Assembly (NCBI GenBank): GCA_016765135.1 | Contig: JAESQN010000044.1 | Coordinates: 126,001 to 190,000 of the forward strand | Direction of reading: 5' to 3' | Length of the DNA: 64,000 nucleotides | Source: Robiginitomaculum sp. | GTDB taxonomy: Bacteria > Pseudomonadota > Alphaproteobacteria > Caulobacterales > Maricaulaceae | Part shown: piece by piece, positions 19,337 through 36,144 of the stretch | Numbering within the stretch: position 1 is the stretch's first letter | Layout of the letters: the number at the start of each line of letters is the position of its first letter | Made by a program: the position numbers and the translations under genes | Notes under the pieces: model-generated | Told to the model about the DNA's origin: nothing | Database searches by the model: none | What the model saw: the letters and a program-made list of their open reading frames with translations, nothing else

Positions 19337-22300
19337 TTACACCATATTTTTTATAAACACGCCGCCTACACCCCGCCCGTAACTCACAGACATCTGATAA
19401 ACCTTGAGCGACAATTCCGTTAATGGACTACCCAGTACCGTTTCCAGTTCCGTTATCGGAATTTGCAGGGATTGCGTCACACTTTCCCTTGTCAAAACCA
19501 CCGCCCCGCCGCTATCCAGAAAATCTATTTCATAGCGTTCATTGTCTTCACCTAGCGGCACATCGAGTGGTGCCCAATCGTCGCCGCCAATTCTTGTGCG
19601 GCGGGTCCAGCTTATGTTTATATTGGTGCCGACCCGTGCGGCTTTTATATGGACAGGAGAGAGGGGGCGGAGGTGGTTTGCCTTATAGTTTAGCGTGAAG
19701 TTTTCCAATCCCTCGCGGCCATTTGTTTCCAGTGTAAACGCCAGTTCACTACCGCGTAAATCTGGGCTGGTGGTATGGTCTTGCCAGCCTTGGCTCAGAT
19801 AGACCACGCGGGCGCCCGCCGGGACGGTTACGCCAAGCACATGATCAGTGCCGTATTGGCCGCGCAATAATTTGCTGATGCGGTATGTGTTCGGGGCTAC
19901 CAGATCGGCATTTGCGGCTTGCAGGATTTCCCAACCTTGGTTGGTTTCTACTGCCAACATATTACCGCCTGACAACACATCTTGGTCGGATAGGGACGCA
20001 AGCAACACGCCCGGTAATAAAACATCGACCTGCGTAGCCATATCAAACCGCCCGACCGGGCCGGACGGGAGGTCGTTCAAGAGTGCGCCTATTACAATAT
20101 ATGTGTCGGTGAGTGTTTCCTGCCCGCTCTCTCCCGCAATCACAGTTTGCGCGAATGGATTGACAACAACCCCAACCAGCGGGCCAGTGCGCGTACCCTC
20201 ACCAGTAAAATCCGCTATATCCAGGCCATAACCTTCGGGGGTTGATACCCATGACGGCGTGCCGACTACGCCCGGCTCACCGCCGCTGGAGATATCTACG
20301 GCCCCGGTTTCAATGCGCCTTGCCTGGGCTGTGCGTCCGCCGAGGCCGTCCAGTGCGGTGATTTGCCAGTCCCCGTCCGTTTGGTCGAGCCGAATAATAT
20401 CGCCAGTTTCAAGCCCGAGCAAAGACGGCGGTATTGCAAAATCGAGAGTTTCGTTTTCCTCCAACACTTGTTCAAGCAAGCTGGCCGCAATGGTCTTCGC
20501 CTGCCCGGTGTCTAGCACCAATGGTGCGGAAATATCTATGATACGTTCGGTTTGTGTGAATAAATCCCGGGCCATGGCCGAGCCGCTTTGGTAATCTTGT
20601 GCCTGGTCTATAAAGCCAATACGCACATCTTTGATGCGGCTCTCGGCGTCGGTGCGTTTGAGGCTCAGACTAAGCTGACCATCTGAAAACACCAAATTGT
20701 CCGGCACAAGATCAAACAATCCCTGCGTACCACGAGAGGCAAAACTCAAGCCGTCTGCACGCTCAATCAAATCAAATCCGTAGAGCCGCGATAACGGTGT
20801 CAAAGCGGCCCGCGCACTCATGGGCCTGTCCAGAACATAGCCGCTGACCATGCCAAGTACTTTGTTAACATCGGGTGCGTCCGCGCCGCTTGAAATACTT
20901 ATATCGCTGACAATATCGGCAAGACTGACCAGTCCGGTACGCCCGCTTATCCAGTGGCCAGTACGCCAGTTACCACCATCCGACCATACGTCCAGTCGTG
21001 CCGGAAAATCCGGGAAAGGCCGTGCGTCCCAACACCAAATATGGGCGCGGGACAAATCAACCATGGGGCCGCCGTACACGCTCGATACCGGGTTTTTGTT
21101 ATTATCCTCCTGCCAGTATCCGAGAAAAATCTCGATATATCTGCGCTGGATTAGATCGTCTCGCGCCGCGCTGGAATAATAGGGCGCAAAGCTTTCGGAC
21201 GATTTTGGATCCCAAAATACATTTGGCTGGTTGGCACCTTTGTCAATGGCCGGGCAGCCGATTTCGGTAAACCAGATGGGTTTGGATTGCGGCACCCACG
21301 GGCTGGCACTTGCTTGCTCAACTCCGTCAATTCTATCGTAATGTGGATTGGCCCACCAGGATTTTACGTCCTTATTGCAGTACACCCACGGCTTGTTATA
21401 AGCCCCATCGGTGATAGGAGTACGGGTCTGGCTATCGCGGTCAGCACTACTGGCATAATACCAGTCATAGCCCTCGCCGCCTTCCATATTAGACGTCAAA
21501 TAATCTTCATCATAAATGCGGGCGTAATTTTGCGCGTCCAAATGATCCGCACTGTCGCGCCAATCGGACAGAGGGAAATATGCATCTATGCCGACCGCAT
21601 CGATATTGCTGTCGGCCCATAACGGATCGAGATGAAACCGCACATCACCGGAGCCGTCGCCCGGCTGATGCCCGAAATATTCCGACCAATCGGCGGCGTA
21701 GCTTATTTTGGTGCCAGCCCCCATAACCGAGCGCACATCTGCGGCTAATGTTTGCAATGCGCTCACGGCCGGATAATCATTTCCTGCCCCGCGCACCGTG
21801 GTCATGCCGCGCATTTCCGAGCCAATAATAAATGCATCCACCCCACCTGCGACCTGCATGAGATGGGCGTAGTGTAATATCATGCGGCGATATTTATATT
21901 CCGCCGGGCCATTGTAAGACACCACTCCGCCCGACACCGAGAAATCACTGGCGCTGGTTGCACCAAAAAAACTTTGCACCTGCGTGGTCGCGGCGGTGGT
22001 TTTATCTACACTGCCTGGTTGGCCTGCGGCGGGGGTGCAGGTGATGCGCCCGCGCCACGGAAATACCGGTTGGCTATTGCCGCCGTATGGATTGGGCAAT
22101 GTGTTGCCGCCCACCACATCCATCAAGATAAACGGATACAGTGTGACTGAAAGCCCGCGTGCATTCAAAGCCTGTACGGCTTCAATGACCGTATCGTCGC
22201 TGGGCGTACCGCCGTAAACGGGCCGCTCGTCAATCTGTGATATCAAATAAGCATTGGCGCGGGTATCGCTACCGACCTGCCAATTGCCCGGCTTGTCGAT

Positions 22301-23173
22301 GCGGTTACGGCTCTCGGCACCGGGGCGCAATTGGCATTCCGCCAGCCGCAAATCATCTCCGAACCAGCTGATTATCAAGGTGACATGGGTGCAATTGGGC
22401 AGGCCGGATTGTAACTGGTCAAGGGCTGCATCCATATCGGAGCGGCCAGACAGATTATTCATATTAACCGGGCGGCTGGTGCCGGGGCCGAGACGTTCTT
22501 CGGTGATGGTGGTGCCGTAAGCAAATTCACCAGAGCCGGGGATGAGGTCAACGCCCGTGACCAAATCTTCCATGCGCGGGGTGTTGTCGGTACGTTTTGG
22601 CGCACGGACAATTTCAAAATTAAGCTGGGGCAGGCGGGTGCCAAAATCTTCCAGCGGCATGTCTTCAAACACCATATAAGCGGTGCCGCGAAAGGCGGGT
22701 ACGGCGGTGCCTTCAATCTCGGCTATCAACGGGTCGGGTGCTTGATCTTCACCGCCTTTGTAGAGCCGCGTGTTTAAATCTTTAATCTGCAATGCCTGAC
22801 CATTGGCCCATATTTGCCCGACTTCGAGAATTTCGCCTTCGCACAAGCCGACGGCAAAACTAAGCGTATAGCTATAATTCCTTGTGCGCGGGCCACCACC
22901 TTTGCCGCCGCGCTTTTCTTCCGTCCTATGTTCCCTGACTCGCGTCGCCCAGATCACCTGGCCAGCCATCCGCGCCCGACCATAAATGCGGGCCATGGGC
23001 GCGCCGTCCTGGGAGCTTTGGATATGCAGGGTTTGCAGGCGCGGGCCTTCAAACACCCGGTTGTCCAGCGCACGGGTAAGGGCTTGCCCGGCATAGGCAA
23101 CACCGACGCGTCCGGCAGTTTGTAACAGTGTTTGGCCAAAAGCTTTGGCCCCGGTCAAAACGAGATTGGTCAT
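19337..23173 (-). CDS. GTA g15-type tail/baseplate protein with TIM-barrel domain
   Basis: This is the largest GTA gene, 1278 residues. The N-terminal part has a phage-like hub region, with SFAVGLCEGEILEVGQIWANG near residue 115. The middle (about 420-730) is the GTA TIM-barrel domain related to glycoside hydrolases, with acidic residues in DAFIIGSEMRG and PIWFTEIGCPA. The C-terminal half contains the phage-tail_3-like region and ends in beta-rich repeats. In RcGTA the homologue forms the outer baseplate and contacts the cell envelope. It is the last gene of the cluster and begins 1 base after g14. Confidence 0.93.
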   Translation of the reverse strand: MTNLVLTGAKAFGQTLLQTAGRVGVAYAGQALTRALDNRVFEGPRLQTLHIQSSQDGAPMARIYGRARMAGQVIWATRVREHRTEEKRGGKGGGPRTRNYSYTLSFAVGLCEGEILEVGQIWANGQALQIKDLNTRLYKGGEDQAPDPLIAEIEGTAVPAFRGTAYMVFEDMPLEDFGTRLPQLNFEIVRAPKRTDNTPRMEDLVTGVDLIPGSGEFAYGTTITEERLGPGTSRPVNMNNLSGRSDMDAALDQLQSGLPNCTHVTLIISWFGDDLRLAECQLRPGAESRNRIDKPGNWQVGSDTRANAYLISQIDERPVYGGTPSDDTVIEAVQALNARGLSVTLYPFILMDVVGGNTLPNPYGGNSQPVFPWRGRITCTPAAGQPGSVDKTTAATTQVQSFFGATSASDFSVSGGVVSYNGPAEYKYRRMILHYAHLMQVAGGVDAFIIGSEMRGMTTVRGAGNDYPAVSALQTLAADVRSVMGAGTKISYAADWSEYFGHQPGDGSGDVRFHLDPLWADSNIDAVGIDAYFPLSDWRDSADHLDAQNYARIYDEDYLTSNMEGGEGYDWYYASSADRDSQTRTPITDGAYNKPWVYCNKDVKSWWANPHYDRIDGVEQASASPWVPQSKPIWFTEIGCPAIDKGANQPNVFWDPKSSESFAPYYSSAARDDLIQRRYIEIFLGYWQEDNNKNPVSSVYGGPMVDLSRAHIWCWDARPFPDFPARLDVWSDGGNWRTGHWISGRTGLVSLADIVSDISISSGADAPDVNKVLGMVSGYVLDRPMSARAALTPLSRLYGFDLIERADGLSFASRGTQGLFDLVPDNLVFSDGQLSLSLKRTDAESRIKDVRIGFIDQAQDYQSGSAMARDLFTQTERIIDISAPLVLDTGQAKTIAASLLEQVLEENETLDFAIPPSLLGLETGDIIRLDQTDGDWQITALDGLGGRTAQARRIETGAVDISSGGEPGVVGTPSWVSTPEGYGLDIADFTGEGTRTGPLVGVVVNPFAQTVIAGESGQETLTDTYIVIGALLNDLPSGPVGRFDMATQVDVLLPGVLLASLSDQDVLSGGNMLAVETNQGWEILQAANADLVAPNTYRISKLLRGQYGTDHVLGVTVPAGARVVYLSQGWQDHTTSPDLRGSELAFTLETNGREGLENFTLNYKANHLRPLSPVHIKAARVGTNINISWTRRTRIGGDDWAPLDVPLGEDNERYEIDFLDSGGAVVLTRESVTQSLQIPITELETVLGSPLTELSLKVYQMSVSYGRGVGGVFIKNMV

Positions 23174-23174
23174 A

Positions 23175-23636
23175 TTATGAACTCAAATTTGGAAATGAAT
23201 AGGCGTAGGCGCAGCGGCTTTGCCAGAACGGGGCGAGGAACGAGCGTGTCACCGACCGACCCCAATAGGCATGGACGATCAAATCGGGCTCGACTAAAAC
23301 GGCCATATGCTTGGCCTGCACACCCGCTTGCATCCGAAACAATAATATGTCGGCCGGGCGGGCATCTTGAAGGCTAATCGGGTCAAGGTGATGATCGCAA
23401 GCGGATTTCAGAATTTCACCTTCGCCAATTTCGGCCCAGTCGGGTGTATAAGGCGGCATTTTGGCTGGCTCGCTGCCGTACAGTTTGCGCCAAATACCGC
23501 GTACCAATCCGAGGCAATCGCAGCCCGCATGCTTTGTAGAGCATTGGTGCTGATAGGGTGTGCCAACCCAGCTTAGGGTTTCGTCGATGATGGCCCTTCT
23601 GGATACATCATGGCGGGATATAGTTTTTAGCATCAA
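23175..23636 (-). CDS. GTA g14-type NlpC/P60 cell-wall peptidase
   Basis: The 153-residue protein is an NlpC/P60 cysteine peptidase. The nucleophile is C41 in GCDCLGLVRG, with the catalytic His at H110 (QAKHMAVL) and a third polar residue H122 (VHAYWG). In RcGTA the homologous protein is part of the tail tip and is thought to open peptidoglycan for DNA delivery. It overlaps g13 by 4 bases and directly precedes g15. Starting at the second methionine would shorten it by one residue. Confidence 0.92.
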   Translation of the reverse strand: MMLKTISRHDVSRRAIIDETLSWVGTPYQHQCSTKHAGCDCLGLVRGIWRKLYGSEPAKMPPYTPDWAEIGEGEILKSACDHHLDPISLQDARPADILLFRMQAGVQAKHMAVLVEPDLIVHAYWGRSVTRSFLAPFWQSRCAYAYSFPNLSS

Positions 23637-24292
23637 GAATAACGGGACGAGCCGTCCTTTTGGTCGGTTTCTCGCGGTGCACTAAAGGCCGCATCTTCTC
23701 CGATCAAATACGGGAAACCGCGAAAATTTACGGTGTTTTGAAACTGGTTTTGGCACGCATTATAGGTGCGCGGGCATGTAGTGCCGGGCGGGAAATTGTT
23801 CACATCAAGGCCGCAACGTGCATCCGCAAAACTGGCGTCACAACTTTTGGCGAATACCCGTCCGGTCGAACGTTCCAACACTGCGGCGCGGCCAACCAGC
23901 TCGGCTTCAAACTGGCCGTCTCGGATTTGAATGTCTCCGAGCCGTCCGCTCCAGATAAGCCCGTATTCGCTCGTATCTATCCAGTTAACGCGACTGATTT
24001 CAACCCGCGCACTATCATAAAGTCCGGCGCGAATATGGGTCTCCGTAATCACATCAGAACTAAGAAGCCCTTGCACGGAACTATTGTCCAAAGCAAAGCC
24101 GAGCCGCGCATCTATATCGGACGGGCTAAAGCCGGACGCAGCCTGATAGGTAGTGCCGTCCACATTCACATCCCGGTCATGATCGGTAAAACCGAGCACA
24201 TTTCCGTCTTGTCTTGTCAGCTTCCATACCCAACATAATGTTGTGGCCTCGCGTTCAATATGGGCCTTAAAACCTTGAGAAAATTCACGCAT
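23633..24292 (-). CDS. GTA g13-type baseplate hub protein (DUF2163)
   Basis: The 219-residue product shows the DUF2163 features CWVWKLTRQDGNVLGFTDHD, YQAASGFSPSDID and LGDIQIRDGQFEAEL. The C-terminal part has a four-cysteine pattern (CDASFADARC, then TTCPRTYNAC). In the RcGTA structure the hub protein binds an iron-sulfur cluster through cysteines, and this pattern fits that role. It overlaps g12 by 8 bases and g14 by 4. Confidence 0.92.
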   Translation of the reverse strand: MREFSQGFKAHIEREATTLCWVWKLTRQDGNVLGFTDHDRDVNVDGTTYQAASGFSPSDIDARLGFALDNSSVQGLLSSDVITETHIRAGLYDSARVEISRVNWIDTSEYGLIWSGRLGDIQIRDGQFEAELVGRAAVLERSTGRVFAKSCDASFADARCGLDVNNFPPGTTCPRTYNACQNQFQNTVNFRGFPYLIGEDAAFSAPRETDQKDGSSRYS

Positions 24293-24887
24293 GGGTTTTG
24301 ATCTCGATCAACGGCACATTCACGGCTCCGCCCGCTCCGAAAGCTTCCAGAGATGTGCTTAATTGCGCGATATCAAAACGCACCGGCACATCAAATTCGA
24401 AGCTGGCGGATATTTGTACGCCGTTGGCCGGGGCTGTGTTAAACACCACCATCCCAGTTTCAAAATCAACGCTGTAATTAGTCGTTGATTGGGCGTTTAA
24501 CTGAATGTTTAAAGTGCTAGCCACAGGTTTGGTAATGATGCGTTGCCACGAACCTGCCATATCAAAATATGTTTTACTCAATTGGAACTGCGTGGTTTGA
24601 CCGTCACCAATACTGATATTGCCACTAGCATCATGATCCACAGGGTCGCGAAACCGAAAGCCGTATAACTGCCCGCGCCGCGCTTCAAAAAATGCGATCA
24701 AAGTACGCATGTCCTCCAGGCTTTTAATCCCAACCCCGGCGTCATATTTACGCCGCGAGTCCGCTTGCGCAGCATTGCGTTGTTCGTGACCACTGGCCAG
24801 GGTAATGATTTCGGTCTGGCGCACCGGCCCACCACTGGCCCCAAAGGCGAGCGGCAGCGGAAAGCTGACATCGTGAAATGAAGACAT
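24285..24887 (-). CDS. GTA g12-type distal tail protein (DUF2460)
   Basis: The product is 200 residues from the ATG at 24887 (MSSFHDVSFPLPLAFGASGG), the conserved family start; the frame stays open upstream into a repeat element, but that extension is not part of the family. Typical DUF2460 motifs include RRKYDAGVGIKSLEDM, FEARRGQLYGFRFRDP and DFETGMVVFNTAP. The protein is a distal tail/baseplate component. An inverted-repeat element of about 205 bp separates it from g11, unlike the tight spacing elsewhere in the cluster. Confidence 0.92.
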   Translation of the reverse strand: MSSFHDVSFPLPLAFGASGGPVRQTEIITLASGHEQRNAAQADSRRKYDAGVGIKSLEDMRTLIAFFEARRGQLYGFRFRDPVDHDASGNISIGDGQTTQFQLSKTYFDMAGSWQRIITKPVASTLNIQLNAQSTTNYSVDFETGMVVFNTAPANGVQISASFEFDVPVRFDIAQLSTSLEAFGAGGAVNVPLIEIKTHA

Positions 24888-24911
24888 GTTTGTTGGTTCC
24901 TGTAATGTTTT

Positions 24912-25117
24912 CTTCCCCCATTTTTCATGGGGGAAGCACCCCAAAGGGGGGATGGGGGCGCGCACCTCTTGTGCGCACCAAACTCTCGTCCCTCACTATT
25001 GTTTCCTACTGCCGCAAGAGCGGCAGGCCCCCATCGCCTACGCAAGAGCTTCGGCACCATTCGCGTCACGGGGCATTTGCTCCGCTTTGGCTCAAACCCC
25101 ATGAAAAATGGGGGAAG
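24912..25117. repeat. inverted-repeat element A inside the GTA cluster
   Basis: This ~206-bp intergenic element has perfect 21-bp inverted ends (24912-24932 and 25097-25117), each end itself a small palindrome (CCCCATgaaaaATGGGG type). A 30-base inner segment at 25028-25057 matches 28 of 30 bases at 29856-29885 in element B. A further stem GCCGC/GCGGC lies near 25013-25026. It fills the g11-g12 gap and appears non-coding. It resembles REP/RIME-type palindromic elements of alphaproteobacteria. Confidence 0.8.
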
Positions 25118-25123
25118 GAAAAA

Positions 25124-25534
25124 TCAAATAAATTTTTGCCCTTGCGCCACTGCCCTTGCCAAAGACGCAGAGATTTGCCCTTGGGATTTTTGGAAACTGC
25201 TGGCGTCATTTACGCCTGTAATATTCATGACGATGTTGAGCGGGTTTGCAGTTTGCGCCGCGCCGCCAGATTGGCCACCGCCAAGTGCCGCGCCTAACGG
25301 TTCCAGCAATAACTCACGAATGGCCAGGCTGGCCAGATCACGGGTAATGGCCGCCGCCATATCGCGAAACGAAAACTCGCCGCTTCTGGCGGCTTGCTCC
25401 AAGGATCTGGCTATGCGTTCTCCGGCTTGTTCAAAGCTTTGCGCCGCCAAATCCGCTGCGTCCCTGGCCGGGCCCTCAGCAAAATCCGCCAACGCCTGTC
25501 CTGCTCTTTGGCTTGCTCTTTCTGTCTCATCCAT
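25124..25534 (-). CDS. GTA g11-type short tail tape-measure protein
   Basis: The 136-residue protein is mostly helical: a long charged amphipathic stretch (EGPARDAADLAAQSFEQAGE) is followed by the tape-measure C-terminal block FSFRDMAAAITRDLASLAIR, a glycine-rich segment (LGAALGGGQSGG) and ASLARAVAQGQKFI. In phages this protein sets tail length. RcGTA already has a reduced version of about 220 residues, and this one is shorter still. The ATG at 25534 overlaps the end of g10.1 by 8 bases. Confidence 0.82.
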   Translation of the reverse strand: MDETERASQRAGQALADFAEGPARDAADLAAQSFEQAGERIARSLEQAARSGEFSFRDMAAAITRDLASLAIRELLLEPLGAALGGGQSGGAAQTANPLNIVMNITGVNDASSFQKSQGQISASLARAVAQGQKFI

Positions 25535-25730
25535 AATTATTCTCATTATTTTTTGCGTCTGGGTAAGTGTTCATCAATTCATCAAATTTTTCGCGGGTAA
25601 TGCCTTCGCTGCCTGCCCCGGCAATCAGAACCAGCCAATCGCACACTGACATTTGCCAAAATTCATGCGGGGACAAGCCAAAGCCGCGCACGGCGGTTTT
25701 CAGCCACATATCAAATGGCCATTCTGTCAT
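25527..25730 (-). CDS. GTA g10.1-type tail assembly chaperone
   Basis: The 67-residue product contains MWLKTAVRGFGLSPHEFWQM, the hallmark of the small GTA/phage tail chaperone that follows g10 and helps load the tape-measure protein. Its C-terminal half (ITREKFDELMNTYPDAKN) is acidic and helical. It overlaps g10 by 4 bases upstream and g11 by 8 downstream, as expected for a chaperone made together with its clients. Confidence 0.85.
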   Translation of the reverse strand: MTEWPFDMWLKTAVRGFGLSPHEFWQMSVCDWLVLIAGAGSEGITREKFDELMNTYPDAKNNENNYG

Positions 25731-26059
25731 GCACCCATTCCCGCAAATGTCTCTTCAAACAGACGCGCCAATGCGGGCATATATTCGCAAGGTTTGGCTC
25801 GCTTTATCATGGCTGGAACGTGGGTGTCGTTATGGCCCTGGGCGCACAAAACACAGTCCAGCAAAGCAAGAGCATCTGCAGAATTATAGTTGTTTTTGGA
25901 AAAATCTCTAATTTTTTCAGCTAATTTCACTGGCCCTTTAACCTTGAGACGGCTCTCGATATGGGCCAAAGTACCCAGCGTTAAGCGCAAACGATAAGTG
26001 CGTCCTTCGATTTTGACGGCCACATCGCCCTTTTGAAATCCGTTTGTTTCCCTTGACAT
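25727..26059 (-). CDS. GTA g10-type tail tube chaperone family protein
   Basis: The 110-residue protein has the family core VAVKIEGRTYRLRLTLGTLAHIESRL, then a helical C-terminal region ending in MPALARLFEETFAGMGA. The family is the GTA TAC-like group, which acts with g10.1 during tail assembly. It starts one base inside the g9 stop and overlaps g10.1 by 4 bases. Confidence 0.87.
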   Translation of the reverse strand: MSRETNGFQKGDVAVKIEGRTYRLRLTLGTLAHIESRLKVKGPVKLAEKIRDFSKNNYNSADALALLDCVLCAQGHNDTHVPAMIKRAKPCEYMPALARLFEETFAGMGA

Positions 26060-26469
26060 TAGAGTGCCGCAAATACTGGTTTACCAGCAGATACCAATAC
26101 CAGTTCATAACTGGCTTCACCTCTGTAACTACCAGCATAATTCAACGCCGAGATTAGAAAGGTTCCGGTAATCGTGCCAAAGTCCGGGATAATAATCTCA
26201 TAGGTTTTGGCGCTTTGGTTAAAGAAACTAGCTCTTACCAAGGCATCGGACGCGCTATCCCTGAAGATACCTTCGCCGCTAATCTCCACCATTTTTATCC
26301 CGGCACCTGGCAAAAGTTCGCGCCAGGCGTCTTCGCTCCCTGAGTCGGTAATGTCGATGGTTTTGGCCCCGAATTTAAACCTTTTGGTGCGAAGCCCGGC
26401 GACCGTAACAAATACATTCTGGTCATTTTCTATTTTGATGAGCATGTCTCGCCCGCGTTGTGCAGCCAT
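26059..26469 (-). CDS. GTA g9-type major tail tube protein
   Basis: The 136-residue product begins MAAQRGRDMLIKIENDQN and contains TVAGLRTKRFKFGAKTIDIT, SEDAWRELLPGAGIKMVEI and GTFLISALNYAGSYRGEASY, all typical of the TP901-1-like tail tube protein of GTAs. Stacked hexamers would form the tail tube. It lies between g8 (13 bases upstream) and g10 (1-base overlap). Confidence 0.93.
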   Translation of the reverse strand: MAAQRGRDMLIKIENDQNVFVTVAGLRTKRFKFGAKTIDITDSGSEDAWRELLPGAGIKMVEISGEGIFRDSASDALVRASFFNQSAKTYEIIIPDFGTITGTFLISALNYAGSYRGEASYELVLVSAGKPVFAAL

Positions 26470-26482
26470 GATGGCGTCTCCT

Positions 26483-26899
26483 TCATGTTGGTTGAGTTGT
26501 GGCGTTAAAGCGGATAACGCCGTGCAGGGTGCGCCCGTCCGGAGCGCGGAAATTGTCGGTAAAAATTACATTGGCACTGACCAAAACTCCCTCGGTTAAT
26601 TGCCAGCCACCACTCTCAAGTACGCCGGACACGGCATTGGTCAAGGCCATGATTTCGGCTCGTCCACCGTAACGTGACCATAAATGCAAGGTCATATTAT
26701 GAGCGGTCATCGGGCTAACGTCGCCGCCAATGTCTTCGCTGCGCAAGGGGCCGTAGGTGAGATAAGGATAGATCGGGTCTTCCGGCGCATGGTCGTATAA
26801 TCGAGGTGTATTGCCCAACACGCTTTGCACCGCCACATCTGCACCAAGTGCGGCATGGACGGCTTTGGCGAGGGATTGTGCCTGATTGGTATCGGTCAT
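26483..26899 (-). CDS. GTA g8-type tail terminator/completion protein (DUF3168)
   Basis: The 138 residues match DUF3168: the helical N-terminus LAKAVHAALGADVAVQSVLG, then LYDHAPEDPIYPYLTYG, a DIGGDVSPMTAHNMTLHLWSR beta core and a C-terminal TLHGVIRFNA. In RcGTA the corresponding protein ends the tail tube at the connector. It overlaps g7 by 4 bases. Confidence 0.9.
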   Translation of the reverse strand: MTDTNQAQSLAKAVHAALGADVAVQSVLGNTPRLYDHAPEDPIYPYLTYGPLRSEDIGGDVSPMTAHNMTLHLWSRYGGRAEIMALTNAVSGVLESGGWQLTEGVLVSANVIFTDNFRAPDGRTLHGVIRFNATTQPT

Positions 26900-27213
26900 T
26901 GTTCTTCTTCCTCACAAATTAAATGAAGCCGTTCACTGCGGTTATCTGGATCGGACGCGGTCAAGACCCGTAGCGTGCGCTCATCCCACAACAAGCGGGT
27001 GCGTTCGGGAAAATCCCGTTGCCAGCGAATGGTGACGCGGTAGGTTTTGGTGATGGCAGCGCGGCCATTTTCAGCCCGCTCGCTCGCCGTGTTGGGTTTG
27101 ATATGGGCCCAGGCCTGGGCGTATAAAACCCAAACCGTTTGTACACCGCCGAACTCGTCCGGCGTGGTTTGGGGTACATAAATTCCGAGCCTGGTACGTA
27201 AATTCCCGATCAT
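26896..27213 (-). CDS. GTA g7-type head-tail adaptor (stopper)
   Basis: This is a 105-residue head-tail joining protein of the SPP1 gp16/HK97 gp10 group. It begins MIGNLRTRLGIYVPQTTPDE and has the usual GGVQTVWVLYAQAWAHIKP and FPERTRLLWDERTLRVL segments. It overlaps g6 by 4 bases upstream and g8 by 4 bases downstream. Confidence 0.9.
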   Translation of the reverse strand: MIGNLRTRLGIYVPQTTPDEFGGVQTVWVLYAQAWAHIKPNTASERAENGRAAITKTYRVTIRWQRDFPERTRLLWDERTLRVLTASDPDNRSERLHLICEEEEQ

Positions 27214-27773
27214 AACCGCACCGTTTTATAGGGTGCCAAGAGGGCTTCGACGATAACGGGAATGGCAGGCGCTTCGGAGGTTTCACGAAACTCGAAAGCA
27301 TGGGTCAATAACAGGACAATGGCTTGTCTTAGCGGCAAGGGAATGTCGTCCGGCGTATCGCCATAGCCAGCTTCGAACTCGATTTCAAGCGTAGTGAACT
27401 CGGCCAGATAATCCGTCCAGTTTTTATCAGATTTAAGCCGGATCTCACCAGGCTCTTTTTTCGCACTCACGGTAAAATCGCTAGGCGGAATATCAACGGC
27501 CTGATCGTTTTCCGCAATCAGCGTCATCCGGATTACCGAAACCAAAGGCGGTCGCGGCAAACAGATACCCCGTCCATGCGGCACAGGTATTCGGTAAATA
27601 AAGCTACGACGGATCAAAGTGCGGCCAATGGTGTTTTCCACTTGGTGGCGAGTGGTTTTGATCAGGGTTTCGATCAACGCATCTTCAGCATTGCCGTCAA
27701 TACGCATAAAAAGTTTCGCATAAGCAAGATCAATCGGCTCCACCAAAGGAGGCGCTAGGTCAATAAGGGACAT
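27210..27773 (-). CDS. GTA g6-type head-tail connector (adaptor) protein
   Basis: The 187-residue protein from ATG 27773 (MSLIDLAPPLVEPIDL) shows the phage connector features YAKLFMRIDGNAEDALIETL and RHQVENTIGRTLI near the start and PLPLRQAIVLLLTHAFEFRE in the C-terminal helix. The longer frame start at 27785 is less likely. It is the first gene after the 200-base gap that follows the capsid gene, and overlaps g7 by 4 bases. Confidence 0.9.
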   Translation of the reverse strand: MSLIDLAPPLVEPIDLAYAKLFMRIDGNAEDALIETLIKTTRHQVENTIGRTLIRRSFIYRIPVPHGRGICLPRPPLVSVIRMTLIAENDQAVDIPPSDFTVSAKKEPGEIRLKSDKNWTDYLAEFTTLEIEFEAGYGDTPDDIPLPLRQAIVLLLTHAFEFRETSEAPAIPVIVEALLAPYKTVRL

Positions 27774-27977
27774 AATTTTTCTCAAAATAACGGATGTTTG
27801 TAACGGGTATTTATATGCTGCTTCCCCCGCAATCCCTCAACGGAATTTCCATAAACATTTAAATAGAAAACTAGTTTTGTTTTCACATAATCTTATGAAA
27901 ATTGGAAAGGTGAATACTATAAGTGGCTGTCCCCGCAAGGGGGAGGACGGGGACAGCCTTCGCGTTTACGAGTAGGG
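27774..27977. other. gap between capsid (g5) and connector (g6) genes
   Basis: This 204-base A/T-rich spacer holds no gene. Its only clear structure is the 10-bp hairpin at 27925-27958 just after the capsid stop; the rest, next to the g6 start, shows TTTTT and AAAA runs but no clear promoter. Confidence 0.6.
27925..27958 (-). repeat. strong hairpin just downstream of the capsid gene
   Basis: GGCTGTCCCC (27925-27934) is perfectly complementary to GGGGACAGCC (27949-27958), a 10-bp stem with a 14-base loop that itself can pair. It lies 20 bases after the capsid stop on the minus strand. No T-run follows, so it is more like an mRNA 3'-end stabiliser or partial attenuator than a full terminator. 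Confidence 0.75.
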
Positions 27978-29222
27978 TTAGCTCGCCGCGAATTTCAGAG
28001 TTTTGATGGCATTGAAATCTTGAATGCCGCCGCCGACCCGCTTGGTTGTGTAGAACAACACATAAGGTTTGGCAGAATACGGATCGCGCAATACCCGCAC
28101 GCCTTGACGGTCAACGATTAGATAGCCGCGCCTGAAATCGCCAAAAGCTATTGAGTAGCTGTCAGAAGCAATATCGGGCATGTCCTCGACTTCGACCAGC
28201 GGATAACCAAGCAATGATGAAGGTTGTCCGGCGGTGCTGGCGGGTTGCCAGATATAATTGCCGTCCGCGTCCTTGAACTTTCGAAGTGCGCCAACAGTGC
28301 GGCGGTTCATCATAAAGCTGGCATTCGCCCGGTAGCGGACTTTGGGTGCATAGATCAAATCAATCAACGCATCAATCGGCTCGGCAGTGTCAAATGCACC
28401 GTCGCTGCCGGTGGCAACATAACCGACATTGCCCCATGTATGGGACGCTTCGGCAACGGCAGTGTAATTCAAGATGCCGCTTGGTTTGTTAACGCCATCG
28501 CCAGCGGTAAATGCCGCAGTTTCCTGGGCCGCAAACACATCGCGAACCTCGTCGGCCAGCCATTGGTCAACATCGGCAACACCGTCGTCGAGCAAGATTT
28601 GCGTGGCGGCTGGCATGGCGTAAAGTTCGCCGGTCGGAAAGTCCAGAAGCTCCATTTGCGGGGCCGTGGTTTCGGGTCTGGCATCGGTTTCACCGGCCCA
28701 GCCTGATGCGGCACCACCAGCACTAACCGGTTTTTTGAAGTTTATAGCTCCAATAGAACGGATCGTGGAAATTGTCCGAAACGGTGAGGCTTCGGCCAAC
28801 GCCCGGTCAATGCGGCTTTCGGTTTCAGCCGGAGCAACATAGCCGCCCTCTGCGCCGACGCCTGCTGTTAGTGCTTTGCCTTCTAGGGCACCGAGAGCAT
28901 TTGCGTCTCCGGTACGGATATAGCTTGACCATGCGGATTTGGCTTCGCTTTTTTGCGAACCAACACCAATATGGGGCTGGGCATTTTTAATGGCCAGGCG
29001 TTCGATTTTGCCAGTTTGTTGATCCAGCGCCGCGTTTAAACGCTCGACCTTTTCGTTAAGCAAAATGTCAGCCGATTGCTTGGCTTCAATTTCGGCCAGA
29101 CGTTGATCATTGGCGTCTTTGAAAGCCGCGAATGTGGCGGAAAAATCGGCTTGTGCAGTGCGCATTTCGGCCGATTTAACCATTTTGGTTTCTTTCTTAG
29201 GGGTGGTTTTGGAATTTCTCAC
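27978..29222 (-). CDS. GTA g5-type major capsid protein (HK97 fold)
   Basis: The 414 residues comprise an N-terminal coiled-coil scaffold-like delta domain (about 20-85, with DQRLAEIEAKQSADILLNEK) followed by the HK97 capsid fold. Landmarks are LTAGVGAEGGYVAPAE, ATQILLDDGVADVDQWLADE, FMMNRRTVGALRKFKDADGN and the C-terminal RDPYSAKPYVLFYTTKRVGG. The protease from g4 probably removes the N-terminal part. Translation starts at GTG 29222, because AAGGAG lies 7 bases upstream inside the end of g4. Confidence 0.95.
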   Translation of the reverse strand: MRNSKTTPKKETKMVKSAEMRTAQADFSATFAAFKDANDQRLAEIEAKQSADILLNEKVERLNAALDQQTGKIERLAIKNAQPHIGVGSQKSEAKSAWSSYIRTGDANALGALEGKALTAGVGAEGGYVAPAETESRIDRALAEASPFRTISTIRSIGAINFKKPVSAGGAASGWAGETDARPETTAPQMELLDFPTGELYAMPAATQILLDDGVADVDQWLADEVRDVFAAQETAAFTAGDGVNKPSGILNYTAVAEASHTWGNVGYVATGSDGAFDTAEPIDALIDLIYAPKVRYRANASFMMNRRTVGALRKFKDADGNYIWQPASTAGQPSSLLGYPLVEVEDMPDIASDSYSIAFGDFRRGYLIVDRQGVRVLRDPYSAKPYVLFYTTKRVGGGIQDFNAIKTLKFAAS

Positions 29223-29710
29223 ATTATTCTCCTTTGTGAGGTTGGGTGTTCATAAGCGAACGTTTTATCGATTTGGGCGTCGATTTGGGTGATGCGTGCA
29301 GCACGCAGCATTGGGAAGGCGACGATGGATACTTCCCAAAGCTCTAATTCGTTCAGTTCTCGTCCGGGGTTTAGAGCCTTGCTCCGCAAAGTTCGGTAAC
29401 CGATGGACAGGCCTTTGAGCGCACCGGAACGCACCAGTCTGGCCGTGCGGTCGGCTCGCTCCTCGCCGAGGAAAATATCGCCGGACACAAACAGTCCCGT
29501 AGCGTCTTCAAACATACGGTGCCAAACCCCGATGGGTTCTTTGGTTTCATGGGCGAACAGCATGGGTAGCTTGCCGTCTTTCAGGGACAAAAGACTGGCG
29601 GCAAATGCGCCCTTGCGGACAATGTCTCCGCCCAGGTCTTTCTTGCCAAACAGGCTGGCATAGCCGGAAATACGCATACGCCCGGTATGCGGTGAGTGGT
29701 TTGTGTTCAT
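29219..29710 (-). CDS. GTA g4-type prohead protease (HK97/U35 family)
   Basis: The 163-residue protease starts at ATG 29710 (MNTNHSPHTGRMRISGYASL). Its catalytic His lies in MLFAHETKEPIGVW and the Ser in SGALKGLSIGYRT, with LWEVSIVAFPM near the end, the usual order of the U35 family. It would cut the capsid N-terminus during head maturation. It overlaps the capsid start by 4 bases. The frame is open upstream into element B, but that stretch is not part of the family. Confidence 0.93.
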   Translation of the reverse strand: MNTNHSPHTGRMRISGYASLFGKKDLGGDIVRKGAFAASLLSLKDGKLPMLFAHETKEPIGVWHRMFEDATGLFVSGDIFLGEERADRTARLVRSGALKGLSIGYRTLRSKALNPGRELNELELWEVSIVAFPMLRAARITQIDAQIDKTFAYEHPTSQRRIM

Positions 29711-29763
29711 GTGTCGGGTTCTTTTCTTTGTGGTGTTTTGCGACAAATTTAGAGTATGTTTTT

Positions 29764-29914
29764 CTTTCCTTCCTCCGTTCTTTACGGGGGAAGTGGGCGC
29801 CTCTTGGCGCTCGATGGGGGGTAATCTCACGTCTTTCGTCAGAGTGTAGTTGTTCCCCCCATCGCCTCCGCAAGAGCTCCGGCACTTCCCCCGTGAAAAA
29901 CGGAGGAAGGAAAG
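29764..29914. repeat. inverted-repeat element B inside the GTA cluster
   Basis: This 151-bp element has 30-bp inverted ends (29764-29793 and 29885-29914; 28 of 30 complementary), each end also a small palindrome. The inner segment 29856-29885 is 28/30 identical to 25028-25057 of element A. It fills the gap between g3.5 and g4 and is probably transcribed with the cluster. Confidence 0.8.
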
Positions 29915-29935
29915 AAGGCGGTATACTCCAGGTTT

Positions 29936-30175
29936 CTAATTCTTCTCTTGATCCAGACGGCGTTCTATTCTTGCCAGGGACTGTCTTGCCATGATCATTT
30001 GTTCTTCGAGACGGGCCATGCGTTCGACGACCAGCGGGCTGGCGGATGTGGTTCTTTCCAAAGTTTTCAACCTTGCTTCGGCGGCACCGCCCCACATGAG
30101 CGCCCCGGCACTTTGGATGGCTAATGTGACGATAATGCCGACACTTACGGTGCGCTCCAGCTTTAGTCCGTTCAT
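29936..30175 (-). CDS. GTA g3.5-type small membrane-associated protein
   Basis: This is a 79-residue protein with one N-terminal hydrophobic helix (VSVGIIVTLAIQSAGALMW) followed by a charged coiled-coil-like tail (RLKTLERTTS, RMARLEEQMIMARQSLARIE). A small protein of this shape sits between portal and protease genes in many GTA clusters (orf g3.5). Its role in head formation is not well defined. It overlaps the portal gene by 4 bases. Confidence 0.78.
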   Translation of the reverse strand: MNGLKLERTVSVGIIVTLAIQSAGALMWGGAAEARLKTLERTTSASPLVVERMARLEEQMIMARQSLARIERRLDQEKN

Positions 30176-31356
30176 GCTGTTGGCTCCGACATTGGTGCGA
30201 GACTGGCCCGCTCGCGTTTTTCATCAACGCTCATGAAATCGATGTTGTTTAAGGCGGCCAATCTCGCGCTACGCTCTGCGGCCAGGGCCGGGATGTCATC
30301 TATATCCGGGACAATGCGCAAATCATCGCCGTACCAATCAGCCAGCCAGCCGCCTAGACTATCGGCGGTTTTGCTTACCAGTGGTAAAATAGTTTGACGC
30401 CAAAAGGCCAGATTGGCTTCTTTGTAATTGGCATAGGTATTGTCACCGGGAATGCCCAGCAACATTGGCGGCACCCCGAACGCCAGAGCGATTTCACGGG
30501 CTGCCTCGCGTTTGGCATTGATGAAATCCATATCGGTTGGGCTCATGCTCATGGACTTCCAGTCCAGACCGCCCTCCAGTAATAAAGGCCGCCCGGCAGC
30601 GCTGGCACCCGAATGCTTGTTCTCAAGCTCGGATTTTAGTCGCTCAAACTGCTCATCGCTTAAATTCTCTGCGCCGCTTGCGCCTTTGTAAACCAGCGCC
30701 CCGCTTGGTCGCGCGGAATTATCCAGCAGCGCCTTCGTCCAGACACTGCCGGAATTATGGACATCAACGGCTTTGGCGGCGGCTTCCAGGGGAGAGAAGC
30801 CGTAAATATCATCGGTCGGATGGAACAGGCGCATATGATGCACGGCCAGCAAGCCGGTGTTTAGCGCAGGCGCGAAGCGACGCCTTTTGCCCGCGACTTC
30901 ATAATCCCATGCTATTGGCCAGCCGGTATTATCGGTCACGGCCCGCATACGGTCGGGGCGTAATGTGAATAATGCGGCGGGCATATCGTCTACCAACACG
31001 GCTTCCAAGAAGCTGTCACCGCCCAATTGTAAATAACCATAAACGCTTTCGAAAAATTCAGCGCGGGATATTTTTGGATTGGGTGAGCGCAACAGGCGTT
31101 CTATCGGGTCAGTCCCGCTACATTCATTATCGCGGCGCACGCAAAATGGCACTGACGCCGCCGCTTCAGCGATTAAGCGAATACAGCGGTAAGCCACCGC
31201 ATTGCCCTGATAGCCTTCACGGGCCAAGGCGCCATAATTATGGGGTGTCCAGTGGGTGGCATTCGCTAATTGCAAAGCCACCAAAGGTGCGCCAGCACCG
31301 GAATGAGATTTAGTTTGAGGGGTACGGGCAAATGCCGTCCGCAGCCAGGTTTTCAT
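30172..31356 (-). CDS. GTA g3-type portal protein (HK97 family)
   Basis: The 394-residue portal has the family landmarks GNAVAYRCIRLIAEAAASVPF, the PIERLLRSPNPKISRAEFFE clip region, and the long C-terminal FGVPPMLLGIPGDNTYANYK. Twelve copies would form the vertex through which DNA is packaged. Start ATG 31356 (MKTWLRTAFARTPQ) is chosen because the upstream in-frame extension has no family match. It overlaps g3.5 by 4 bases. Confidence 0.93.
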   Translation of the reverse strand: MKTWLRTAFARTPQTKSHSGAGAPLVALQLANATHWTPHNYGALAREGYQGNAVAYRCIRLIAEAAASVPFCVRRDNECSGTDPIERLLRSPNPKISRAEFFESVYGYLQLGGDSFLEAVLVDDMPAALFTLRPDRMRAVTDNTGWPIAWDYEVAGKRRRFAPALNTGLLAVHHMRLFHPTDDIYGFSPLEAAAKAVDVHNSGSVWTKALLDNSARPSGALVYKGASGAENLSDEQFERLKSELENKHSGASAAGRPLLLEGGLDWKSMSMSPTDMDFINAKREAAREIALAFGVPPMLLGIPGDNTYANYKEANLAFWRQTILPLVSKTADSLGGWLADWYGDDLRIVPDIDDIPALAAERSARLAALNNIDFMSVDEKRERASLAPMSEPTA

Positions 31357-31503
31357 AAGATATCCGTAAGTTTGATTTCTCTGGCTCTGAACTGCGCTTA
31401 TATAAGAGACGCAATTTCTGACCATGGATGAAATCTACCCCAACTTGCGGGGTCATGGAAATATCTCTGCCTTGTATTGGTATTTATTTGATTTAATAGA
31501 GTT

Positions 31504-31935
31504 TTATGCCGCGCCCATCAAGGAAACACTTTGGTGACGTTGGCCTTTTCCGGCGTAGTTCATGGCTAAGGCATAGCTTTTGCGGGTTTGTGCGCGTAGT
31601 GTGTGAGCCCCAAGCATGGACGCTATGGTTATAGCACCCCGGTAGGCTGAAATGGCAGCTTCGATTGCGGACATGTCCCCTTCATTTTTACCAATGTTCA
31701 ATAACACATCACCAAGTTTCTTTTGGACGCGGGCATCTTCGATCTGGGCTGTGTCCGGAGAATAAAGCCCTTCAGCCGTTCGCATGGCTTGCACCGCTTC
31801 GATTAGGGGCGTTACTTCACCAGTTTCGTTGGCTAATGCAATCATGCGCAATGCCATCTCCCGGTTAAGACTTGCTAATTCTACGGTCGCGGTTTTGTGC
31901 TCGCGCCGTAACCTAAATTTGTTCGCTATCGCCAT
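31504..31935 (-). CDS. unknown helical (TPR-like) protein within the GTA cluster
   Basis: The 143-residue protein is set by GGAGAG 4 bases before the ATG at 31935. It is almost all alpha-helix in character, with repeating helix pairs such as IEAVQAMRTAEGLYS and IEAAISAYRGAITIASML that resemble tetratricopeptide units. I recognise no named family. Its place between the terminase side and the portal, on the same strand and in the same transcript direction, suggests it is co-expressed with the GTA. It could be a passenger gene. Confidence 0.6.
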   Translation of the reverse strand: MAIANKFRLRREHKTATVELASLNREMALRMIALANETGEVTPLIEAVQAMRTAEGLYSPDTAQIEDARVQKKLGDVLLNIGKNEGDMSAIEAAISAYRGAITIASMLGAHTLRAQTRKSYALAMNYAGKGQRHQSVSLMGAA

Positions 31936-31994
31936 TATTCTCTCCACATTTGCAATATTTGTGGCCCTTTTGAGCGATTATGGTTAAAAACCCC

Positions 31995-32528
31995 TTAATT
32001 ATCAAGGTTAAACATTGATTCAGCTTCCGTATTTTTCCAAAGGGTTTGCGCGAAACGGTTGAAATCTGTTCCGGTTTTTGTGCGCAACAAATTTATACCG
32101 GCATGTTGAAATATCGCATCTTTAAAGCCGTCAACCATCTTGGCTTCGTCGTCCAAATGAGAACGTCCGTCCAACTCAATTGCATAAATAACACGCCCGC
32201 GTCCGTCGCATATAATAAAGTCTACGTGGCGGGATTTTATTCTGCCTCGGTATTGCCAGCGTAGGCGGGTGTCTTTGATGGCTCGCTTGACCCGCAAAAT
32301 ATCTTCGAGGCGGACTTTAGCCATGACGTGAAACCCGGGCTGTTTATGTCGGAGCAGGGCCGTAAACAATGCCTGTTCAGGGGCGTTGACAAATAAACTC
32401 TCGCAAGCTTCATAGGCCATTAAGGTTTGTCTATCCGCTTGTGTGCTTTTTGGAACTGGCCATTTGGCCCGGCGCAAAACCAACCAAAATACGGCACCAA
32501 TTCCGGCGGTAATCAATAATTCAAGCAT
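31995..32528 (-). CDS. DUF2726 protein: membrane-anchored, nuclease-like domain
   Basis: The 177-residue product (ATG 32528) has an N-terminal transmembrane helix (LITAGIGAVFWLVLRR). A DUF2726 domain follows: ALFTALLRHKQPGFHVMAKV, then RHVDFIICDGRGRVIYAIEL and DGRSHLDDEAKMVDGFKDAIF. The D-x(n)-E-x-D pattern in the core is that of PD-(D/E)xK-like nuclease folds, but activity is not shown. A TTG at 32564 directly after the terminase stop is an alternative start, with no ribosome site. It lies between large terminase and portal, where standard GTA clusters have no such gene. Confidence 0.75.
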   Translation of the reverse strand: MLELLITAGIGAVFWLVLRRAKWPVPKSTQADRQTLMAYEACESLFVNAPEQALFTALLRHKQPGFHVMAKVRLEDILRVKRAIKDTRLRWQYRGRIKSRHVDFIICDGRGRVIYAIELDGRSHLDDEAKMVDGFKDAIFQHAGINLLRTKTGTDFNRFAQTLWKNTEAESMFNLDN

Positions 32529-32565
32529 AGAACATATAATGAACAAGTAGAAAGGTGTTTGCAAG

Positions 32566-33855
32566 CTATAATGTTCTGACCTTGGGGAGCGGCGGTCTTG
32601 CCTTGAGTAGCAAGTCCGTCACCGCCCAGACCAGTGCATCGGCACGGTCTGGGCTTTTTCTCGGCCCGTCAATAGCGCCCAGTGAACATAGCTCATCTTC
32701 CAATGCTGCCAAACCGCGCACATGTTTGACTTTGCCGCGTTCATAGAGTGTTGCCACAGGTTCGGCGCGGGCAGTCTTGGATTTGGACGCATAAACAGTG
32801 CGCAGTGGCGTTTCACCTTCAATGGCATCCAGCACCGCATTGACCATTTCACCGCCCTGATTGATCTCGGCCAGCAGATAGTCTGCGTCCCAGTCGCGCC
32901 ATAATTCCACCGCAAGCGCCGCCCATTCAACGGGCTTTAATCCTTGTGTGGTGGCATCGTGCAACACATAGACCACCGCTTGCGCTCCGAAGCCTGAACG
33001 CCCGGCTACAATCAGGCCGCACGCATCTGCTTTGGCACCGGAACTGGCAGGCGGGTCAATGGCAACGACGATTTTTTCTAAACCTTTCGGTGCTTTGTCC
33101 ACCAAAACCTGGTCGATCAGGGCGCGTGTCCACAGTGCACCTTCGCGGTCTTCCAGTATTTCGCCGTTCAACTCCTGACGGCCCAATCTTGTACCGCCGT
33201 AAATTTCATATATGTTGCGTATGAAAGCAGGAGACAGGTTTTTTTCATTGTCTTTGGTGGCCGTCCGGCTCACGACTACGCTTGGTTCGGCCATGAGTTT
33301 TTTTAAAGAGATTATAGGTTTTGGGGTCGTTGTTATGACGAGTTGAGGCGTTTCTCCCAGCCGTAATCCCATGCGCAAATTTGACAATGTATCTTCGGGG
33401 TAGGCCCAGGCGCAAAATTCATCTGCCCAGGCACAATCGAATTGTGGCCCGCGTAACCCGTCCGGGTCTTCGGCGGAAAACACCTGTCCCACGGCTCCGT
33501 TCTCCCATTCCAGCCGCCGCCGTGATGAAATGTAATAGGGTCGGTTATCGTGTGTTTCTATATTAAGTAGCCCACTTTTCCCCTCGATCATAACCTCGCG
33601 AGCTTCATTGTATGTCGGTGCCACCAGAGCAATACGCTTGGCTCCGTCCGCGACTTGTTCACGAACCCATTCGGCTCCCGTCCGGGTTTTGCCTGCTCCT
33701 CGACCGCCGAGAAGTAGCCAAATGCGCCAATCCCCTGGTGGCGGGGTTTGGTCAGGGCGACGGATTACGGGCCACGCAGAGTTCGTGCCTATGTAGTATT
33801 TCAGTTTGTCCCCGTCCAAACCACTCAAGGCGCGGACCATTTCTTCCTGGGTCAA
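32566..33855 (-). CDS. GTA g2-type terminase large subunit
   Basis: This is the DNA-packaging motor, 429 residues. The ATPase has Walker A GGRGAGKT (50-57) and a Walker B-like CAWADEF (about 145-150). The RNase H-like nuclease domain carries acidic residues in VVAIDPPAS and near the C-terminal SPDRADALVWAV. The domains look intact, so packaging should be functional. Its start overlaps the candidate small terminase gene by 4 bases. Confidence 0.95.
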   Translation of the reverse strand: MTQEEMVRALSGLDGDKLKYYIGTNSAWPVIRRPDQTPPPGDWRIWLLLGGRGAGKTRTGAEWVREQVADGAKRIALVAPTYNEAREVMIEGKSGLLNIETHDNRPYYISSRRRLEWENGAVGQVFSAEDPDGLRGPQFDCAWADEFCAWAYPEDTLSNLRMGLRLGETPQLVITTTPKPIISLKKLMAEPSVVVSRTATKDNEKNLSPAFIRNIYEIYGGTRLGRQELNGEILEDREGALWTRALIDQVLVDKAPKGLEKIVVAIDPPASSGAKADACGLIVAGRSGFGAQAVVYVLHDATTQGLKPVEWAALAVELWRDWDADYLLAEINQGGEMVNAVLDAIEGETPLRTVYASKSKTARAEPVATLYERGKVKHVRGLAALEDELCSLGAIDGPRKSPDRADALVWAVTDLLLKARPPLPKVRTL

Positions 33856-34205
33856 ACAAGGCCCCCGTTTTTGCTAATAAGTTCTGCCAATTCTGTGGCC
33901 AAAGCCTCTTTTTCTTCAAGAGTATAGGTCTGCTTCGCAGATATTTCGGCGTCTACAATTGCTTTATTATGGGTGAGTATCTCTTTGACGGTTTTCATGA
34001 GGATAGATATTTCACGGGCATGTTTATCTGCGACCATCTCGCTTTCCAAGTCGCTTGAATATTTGATTAAAGCGTTTATGCGTTTAACCAAAAGCTCCCC
34101 ATCAATGTAAAACCCCGAATAAGGATCAGCGTAAAGTTCAGGGCCGGGATCGGTCTTTATTGGTATTAAGTCTATCGAATTGATTGTCAGGGTTTGTTTG
34201 GTCAT
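33852..34205 (-). CDS. candidate GTA small terminase (g1 position)
   Basis: The 117-residue protein from ATG 34205 has no strong match that I can name. It has a central helical stretch (VKRINALIKYSSDLESEMVA) and a second long helix ending in EEKEALATELAELISKNG, suited to oligomerisation. Its position immediately before the large terminase, overlapping it by 4 bases, and its size are those of RcGTA g1, shown in R. capsulatus to be a small terminase. An upstream in-frame start at 34232 is less likely. Confidence 0.6.
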   Translation of the reverse strand: MTKQTLTINSIDLIPIKTDPGPELYADPYSGFYIDGELLVKRINALIKYSSDLESEMVADKHAREISILMKTVKEILTHNKAIVDAEISAKQTYTLEEKEALATELAELISKNGGLV

Positions 34206-34372
34206 ATCCGAACAATGGGGGGGGATAGTCAATCATGGATAAGATTTATCAAAGAACGTTCAGCCTGCGACAAGTCCGCACACTTTAGCTGTTGGGCGCT
34301 GTTATTGCAGGGATATTAGGAAGTTTATGTGAGTGTTTCAATATTGGAACCAAAGCACGAGTGGAGATGAAA
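34206..34372. other. divergent regulatory gap of the GTA cluster
   Basis: This 167-base gap separates the first GTA gene (minus strand) from the JmjC-type gene (plus strand) and must hold the main GTA promoter. Visible signals are a G-run (nine G at about 34217-34224) and a GAACGTTC palindrome at 34254-34261. No clear -35/-10 pair is seen on either strand. Confidence 0.4.
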
Positions 34373-35320: not shown

Positions 35321-35383
35321 GGCAGATATCTGAGCGGCTGGTATCAATTGTAAATGAGCCACATTTGTTGGATGGTTAGGTTG

Positions 35384-35932
35384 TTAAAATGGTAGTTTTA
35401 AATCAGGACATTTGCGGGCTAGTACTTGCGCAAATGCACCGTGACCATTGTAGAGATAGCTCCAATAAATCCTGCGACCTTCATTAGTTTGGACGTACCA
35501 ATACTGGGTAACGGTTGTTCCCGTACTCGTAATGTCTGACCATTGTATCTGGGTTCGGGATTTTCCGAGGATGGGGCCAAACATTTTTGAGGCCCCCTCT
35601 ACATATTGCGTGTTCCAGTTTACGTCATGTATTGATGACAGTGATGGAGCCATAAAACCAGACATTGCCGCACCCATAAGCGTGAGAAACAGGCCGAGTA
35701 CTATCTCAGACATACCGTAAACTACCACAGCAAATAGACCGGAAAGTATCATAATAATTCCAAAAACAATGGTAAGCCATGCGGTGCCTTTGCCCGGTGA
35801 AATGATGCCTTCGTACTCAGTCAACACAATTGCTTGGGCGTTACGGGCGTGGGTTTGGATTTTGTAGATGCAAAACACGGTTAAAGAGACAATTGCGGCG
35901 GAGGTAACTACTTGTGCAAGAATATCAAACAT
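35384..35932 (-). CDS. membrane protein of unknown function
   Basis: The 182-residue product has three hydrophobic segments: near 5-22 (AQVVTSAAIVSLTVFCIY), 50-72 (WLTIVFGIIMILSGLFAVVV) and 75-97 (SEIVLGLFLTLMGAAMSGFM). A soluble C-terminal half rich in aromatic residues follows (VTQYWYVQTNEGRRIYWSYLYN). I do not recognise the family. It is single-gene, convergent with the JmjC-type gene and divergent from mraZ. Confidence 0.6.
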   Translation of the reverse strand: MFDILAQVVTSAAIVSLTVFCIYKIQTHARNAQAIVLTEYEGIISPGKGTAWLTIVFGIIMILSGLFAVVVYGMSEIVLGLFLTLMGAAMSGFMAPSLSSIHDVNWNTQYVEGASKMFGPILGKSRTQIQWSDITSTGTTVTQYWYVQTNEGRRIYWSYLYNGHGAFAQVLARKCPDLKLPF

Positions 35933-36083: not shown

Positions 36084-36144
36084 GATAATGAGCGCCGCTA
36101 AGCTTGCAAGCGATCAATGGAATGGTTGGAATTTGTTAAGACGT

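Follow-up and report, generated by a model that had tools for sequence, protein, structure and literature searches.

The closest described counterpart of the locus studied here is the gene transfer agent (GTA) cluster of Caulobacter crescentus, CcGTA, in which gtaQS likewise place two additional genes in the gap between terminase and portal (gtaT - gtaQS - gtaP; PMC11150451, PMC9632790). Embedded in CcGTA there is also a host gene that is not part of the GTA: CCNA_02873, which is annotated as bleomycin resistance and lies on the antisense strand. In Caulobacter, CtrA does not regulate GTA synthesis (PMC9632790). Genes within GTA clusters are usually assumed to belong to the GTA, and discussions of GTA persistence treat the cluster as a single selective unit.

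We analysed a stretch of 64,000 nt (the window) from a Robiginitomaculum sp. genome, whose close relatives, where identified by name, are Robiginitomaculum and Hellea species. It contains an RcGTA-type GTA cluster, that is, ordered head-tail genes with terminase, portal, protease, capsid, and megatron. Two further genes, orfB and a gene for a DUF2726 protein, stand between the large terminase and the portal. Together with their promoter they occupy 31504-32564, slightly more than in the original prediction. The features are as follows.

33852..34232, minus strand: candidate GTA small terminase at the g1 position, overlapping the terminase start; no family match, function assigned from position alone
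32566..33855, minus strand: GTA large terminase (Terminase_6N/6C)
31995..32528, minus strand: DUF2726 protein gene; ORF 31995-32564, likely start ATG at 32528, 177 aa
31984..31998: predicted CtrA-type full site TTAA-N7-TTAA; minus-strand sequence TTAAGGGGTTTTTAA, then CCATAAT
31504..31935, minus strand: orfB; ORF 31504-31947, likely start ATG at 31935, 143 aa
30172..31425, minus strand: GTA portal (Phage_portal, 2e-79)
19337..30168, minus strand: remaining GTA cluster, including tail genes
29219-29830, minus strand: S78 protease of the GTA
27978-29222, minus strand: GTA major capsid
27210-27785, minus strand: GTA adaptor
19337-23173, minus strand: GTA megatron (g15; NF048004, 1592 bits versus a cut-off of 800)

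The original prediction of two additional genes between the large terminase and the portal, on the strand and in the direction of the cluster, was thus borne out: the flanking genes are a true terminase and a true portal, and both ORFs are on the minus strand. Orthologues of orfB and of the DUF2726 gene occupy the same slot in many genomes with dN/dS values of mostly 0.03-0.2, and for these reasons we regard both ORFs as genes rather than chance reading frames. The likeness to gtaQS rests on position, and no CtrA box has been described for CcGTA, unlike orfB (see below).

The DUF2726 protein matches Pfam PF10881 well above the cut-off (E=1e-20; 74.2 bits versus 24.7) and has a transmembrane helix at its N-terminus (residues 2-20, numbered from the ATG at 32528). 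Because basic residues come after this helix, the DUF2726 domain is probably cytoplasmic. Its AlphaFold2 model has a mean pLDDT of 93.5, and the top Foldseek matches of the model were TnsA, VRR_NUC, FAN1, and PvuRts1I, with weak E values (~0.01 and above) and a high probability for the best. Residues E51, D103, E118, D120, H124, D133, and K136 (same numbering) are invariant among 25 sequences. The core fold and the conserved acidic and K(H) residues suggest that the protein has a PD-(D/E)xK-like fold and is a putative nuclease. DUF2726 belongs to the PD-(D/E)xK superfamily, near DUF559 and MTES_1575; the profile match, the D/E/H/K core, and the fold neighbours TnsA, VRR_NUC, and FAN1 make up the likeness of the window protein to it. 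In a previous report, DUF2726 was named as a REase-fold DNase fused to AbiJ-NTD3 (PMC3710099). The window protein differs from the known DUF2726 proteins in its N-terminal membrane helix, its GTA setting, and the lack of an AbiJ-type fusion. Profile, helix, model, and structural neighbours all agree with the membrane-anchored protein with a nuclease-like core that had been proposed from the DNA, and modelling for a PD-(D/E)xK site, suggested at the same time, gave a fold of this type.

The orfB protein had no match in Pfam, PHROG, NCBIfam, or PADLOC. Its AlphaFold2 model (pLDDT 88.9) comprises helices at residues 2-38, 42-55, 65-85, 88-108, and 111-127, with a tail at 134-143 below 50, and the predicted fold is a helical hairpin bundle with a disordered C-terminal tail, in keeping with the TPR-like helical protein originally predicted for the gap. 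Helical hairpins are in common with TPR and other helical-repeat proteins, and there were weak matches to large TPR proteins; the structure search returned generic helical repeats only (designed repeats, sNASP, LGN), also weakly. Unlike members of the TPR family, the window protein has no Pfam TPR match, and the hits of its relatives to the TPR profile are sporadic and below threshold. OrfB is a new lineage-restricted protein family of TPR-like helical type.

The C-terminus of orfB is Ala-Ala or Val-Ala in 49 of 49 proteins, and the dozen or so residues before it differ among the proteins in both sequence and number and are disordered in the model. Since Caulobacter ClpXP recognizes non-polar C-terminal residues (PMC8973945) and the non-polar (A/V)A end is conserved, the tail is most simply read as a putative ClpXP-type degron; an accessible non-polar end after a predicted disordered tail is what the sequence of a ClpXP substrate would be expected to have. 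As judged from codon substitution, orfB is under strong purifying selection with or without a GTA: dN/dS was 0.027 in the GTA-less pair G088-G089 and 0.05-0.19 elsewhere, ratios that are rough because many pairs are close to saturation at synonymous sites.

We found orfB in 53 of 137 family genomes, belonging to eight genera and all, where sampled, on one branch of the PBP1A tree. Strong-scoring DUF2726 orthologues were present in 33 of the 137 and directly preceded orfB in 32. A scan of 84,980 species, with one genome per species, gave 41 orfB loci, titled Robiginitomaculum, Hellea, Algimonas, Hyphomonadaceae, and uncultured Caulobacterales and Alphaproteobacteria. When the terminase-portal gap was compared across the order, as had been recommended, the two genes were adjacent in most of the other genomes examined; adjacency is therefore the usual state and the pair is an insertion. 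The gap inserts of the order relatives examined are unrelated to the pair. On gene order and distribution, these comparisons show a single entry of the pair into the gap, in an ancestor of the Robiginitomaculum/Hellea lineage, and the gap itself, by the same kind of comparison, is a permissive insertion site that is open to host genes. The PBP1A tree is of a single gene and comes from a quick search, and the orfB and DUF2726 trees are short with several weak deep branches. Relatives are mostly metagenome-assembled genomes, which makes single absences uncertain; the arrangements in G011 and G086 described below are contiguous and hence unaffected by assembly gaps.

Several other origins were considered. 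A phage or plasmid origin of the pair was rejected, as no phage or plasmid relatives were found and orfB has no PHROG, and an RNA element was rejected because there was no Rfam match. An independent mobile cassette is not favoured, because the ancestral GTA site holds orfB alone in G011 and the pair in G086, and because the gene trees are in broad agreement with that of PBP1A, with some deep branches weak or long. The restriction-type nuclease might also form a defence or immunity pair with orfB as its sensor or adaptor, lodged in the gap as in a prophage cargo site. The earlier naming of DUF2726 as a REase-fold DNase with AbiJ-NTD3 fusions (PMC3710099) is consistent with this, as are the patchy distribution and faster divergence of the DUF2726 protein. 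However, PADLOC recognized no known anti-phage system, no phage or plasmid relatives were found, as noted above, orfB often occurs without the nuclease, and inheritance is vertical on the whole, so that we consider a defence role highly improbable.

In 44 of 49 genomes, the 200 nt preceding orfB contain an exact TTAA-N7-TTAA box. In the same scan, which covered 260 nt per gene with 60 nt of these inside the open frame, the box was found for terL in 0/36, DUF2726 in 0/31, portal in 1/35, protease in 0/31, capsid in 0/28, and adaptor in 0. In all, 554 kb contained 64 boxes, 51 of which precede orfB; the binomial value for the box is descriptive only, as it ignores shared ancestry. The 7-nt spacers are of 41 different kinds among the 44 sites, and the distance from the box to the likely orfB start is usually 42-60 nt. 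Every site has a C directly behind the second TTAA, at a position that the search left free, and in most sites CAT comes next, giving the logo TTAA-N7-TTAAC-CAT. According to the definitions of full and half sites for CtrA (PMC3692519, PMC6180460), the orfB box resembles those of the alphaproteobacterial CtrA regulon: a full site TTAA-N7-TTAAC is merged with a half site TTAACCAT and thus reads TTAA-N7-TTAACCAT, and its distance to the start is nearly constant. On the other hand, orfB differs from the members of this regulon in being a lineage-specific gene that has not been described as a CtrA target.

The box was found both where orfB lies at the GTA site and where it lies beside purA, as well as in G011. 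No exact box was found at orfB of G086, where there is just a half site, or at orfB of G093 and three Algimonas loci. The box of the window (31984-31998) overlaps the stop codon of the DUF2726 gene. These results suggest that orfB is under CtrA control from its own promoter, to which CtrA presumably binds directly. CtrA activates from sites near -35 and represses from half sites that cover -10 (PMC6180460). In the window, CATAAT, a possible -10 element, overlaps the second half site, which would suit repression by CtrA more than activation; both readings of the promoter are possible. Terminator and promoter scans at the locus were no better than in shuffled sequence and for that reason were not used for operon structure. 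Two more exact TTAA-N7-TTAA boxes are present in the window, at 6739 and 63693.

The distribution of the two genes differs from that of the GTA. DUF2726 is absent from the nearest relatives of the window genome (G002 and G007) as well as from G001, G009, and G021, all of which carry orfB and the GTA genes. G002 retains the last seven DUF2726 codons (AMFNLDN versus SMFNLDN in the window), and G009 has a short 3' remnant. Since both remnants sit just before the orfB promoter, DUF2726 was evidently lost with the promoter spared. In terms of gene content, these genomes show DUF2726 to be dispensable for the GTA: the GTA genes stay unharmed whether it is there or not.

OrfB, conversely, was retained in 10 GTA-less genomes. 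In GTA-bearing relatives, the ancestral GTA site reads PBP1A< ycgN> terL> ... g15> dnaJ> orf130> RR> HK>. In G011, which is 99% complete and nested within the genus of the window on the PBP1A tree, it reads PBP1A< ycgN> orfB> dnaJ> orf130> RR> HK>, with the cluster deleted on both sides of orfB; terL, portal, and g15 were not found anywhere in this genome. In the genus g19, terL and portal were found in 0 of 10 genomes, but orfB is present in nine and has DUF2726 adjacent in four. G086, sister to the rest of g19, carries the pair at the ancestral site (PBP1A< ycgN> DUF2726> orfB>), and in the other eight orfB-bearing g19 genomes orfB lies beside purA. By the gene content of these genomes, survival of orfB after complete GTA loss is shown. 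A flagellar role for orfB was rejected, because the gene and the box upstream of it are retained in 19 genomes where FliF was not found.

The genome of Hellea balneolensis DSM 19091 yielded no portal. The expected portal place after orfB is taken by a BCCT transporter and other genes, and terL, DUF2726, and orfB are open. At this locus (L083, 5426-8287), the BCCT transporter and two other genes replace the portal and the later GTA genes; the terminase and megatron are still open, and the type strain thus appears to have a gutted GTA. Rather small genomes that lack GTA terminase and portal, orfB, and PBP1A (G067, G072, G073, G084) are possibly streamlined.

A GTA component should be present with the GTA and lost with it, and neither orfB nor DUF2726 follows this pattern. 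The original prediction offered GTA-linked functions, with DNA processing or release as examples, as one possibility, and this interpretation is mostly not supported. Position, strand, and the conserved slot are consistent with a producer-side function of that kind, which might also be lysis timing, and so is the history of the pair, which has remained beside the GTA in most lineages and was carried along when the cluster was relocated in the window's subclade; because of this history, some link to GTA physiology is possible. However, the genes were retained after GTA loss at least twice, orfB has a promoter box of its own that is not common to the GTA genes, and DUF2726 was lost without decay of the GTA genes. 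A producer-side function is therefore very unlikely. Absence from close relatives with intact GTAs, which was said in advance to speak against a GTA link, applies to DUF2726 in the five genomes named above, whereas orfB is present there. Occurrence mainly outside GTA clusters, likewise named in advance, applies at least in part: orfB, sometimes with DUF2726, is found in GTA-less genomes. Of the earlier guesses, 'cargo genes' comes nearest, if cargo is taken to mean a host gene carried as a passenger.

The alternative that we take most seriously is that the pair serves the recipient, in uptake or integration of GTA-delivered DNA, with GTA-less lineages keeping it to receive the particles of their neighbours; GTA-less 'cheaters' have been discussed (PMC10883770). 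In Rhodobacter, CtrA controls the GTA recipient genes comEC, comF, and dprA, and PMC13236601 cites a CtrA-regulated recipient capability. The CtrA box of orfB would fit such control, a membrane-anchored nuclease-like domain would suit incoming DNA, and a GTA is nearby in most lineages. Nevertheless, recipient genes are widely shared whereas the pair is limited to one lineage, the nuclease gene is absent from many GTA-bearing genomes, and the GTA-less g19 is an old group comprising about ten species. We thus regard a recipient role as unlikely.

Taken together, the sequence comparisons argue that orfB and DUF2726 are probably host passengers in the GTA cluster rather than GTA parts: a lineage-specific, CtrA-controlled gene and an optional nuclease partner. 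Under this passenger reading, CtrA would govern the transcription of orfB at a promoter belonging to this gene, separately from the GafYZ-type regulation that is known for GTA clusters, and the orfB protein would be removed by ClpXP via the (A/V)A end. From this presumed turnover, the amount of orfB may track the cell cycle or developmental state. The protein could then act as a small helical adaptor with a short lifetime, either during the cell cycle or in a state determined by CtrA, for instance stationary phase. The putative DUF2726 nuclease, presumably anchored in the inner membrane, may be an optional partner of orfB acting on DNA near the membrane, a link suggested by gene order alone. 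More tentatively, and with the balance somewhat against it, orfB might be a new cell-cycle factor of Robiginitomaculum/Hellea, made under CtrA and removed by ClpXP, that tethers or regulates a membrane nuclease; the GTA would have been its home through most of the history of the lineage, with a job independent of the GTA. Repeated natural deletions split particle genes, which go, from a regulated host gene, which remains, and thereby offer a clean criterion for distinguishing GTA genes from lodgers. The locus also extends the CtrA regulon of a little-studied Caulobacter-related lineage by one likely member.

Other features of the clusters were as follows. In Algimonas- and Hellea-type loci (L190:194-1314, L193:699-1514, L195, L188), genes for GafY-like (DnaA C-terminal helix-turn-helix, PF08299) and/or GafZ-like (DUF6456, PF20057) proteins lie directly upstream of the terminase, and these regulators are thus joined to the structural cluster; in the window they are not at that place. 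In another family of the order, the terminase-portal gap contains a ParA-like ATPase together with a small protein, encoded on the opposite strand (L096:3268-4661, L105:4982-6329). In single genomes, it contains a MauG-type di-haem peroxidase, a PIN-domain gene, or an IS1595-like transposase (L185:4136-5956, L189:3589-4206, L080:7058-8047), and secreted proteins are also among the gap inserts in relatives. In the window's subclade, the GTA cluster has moved from the ancestral PBP1A-ycgN/dnaJ site, and in the window (27210-36803) it now lies ~2 kb from mraZ and the division and cell-wall cluster.
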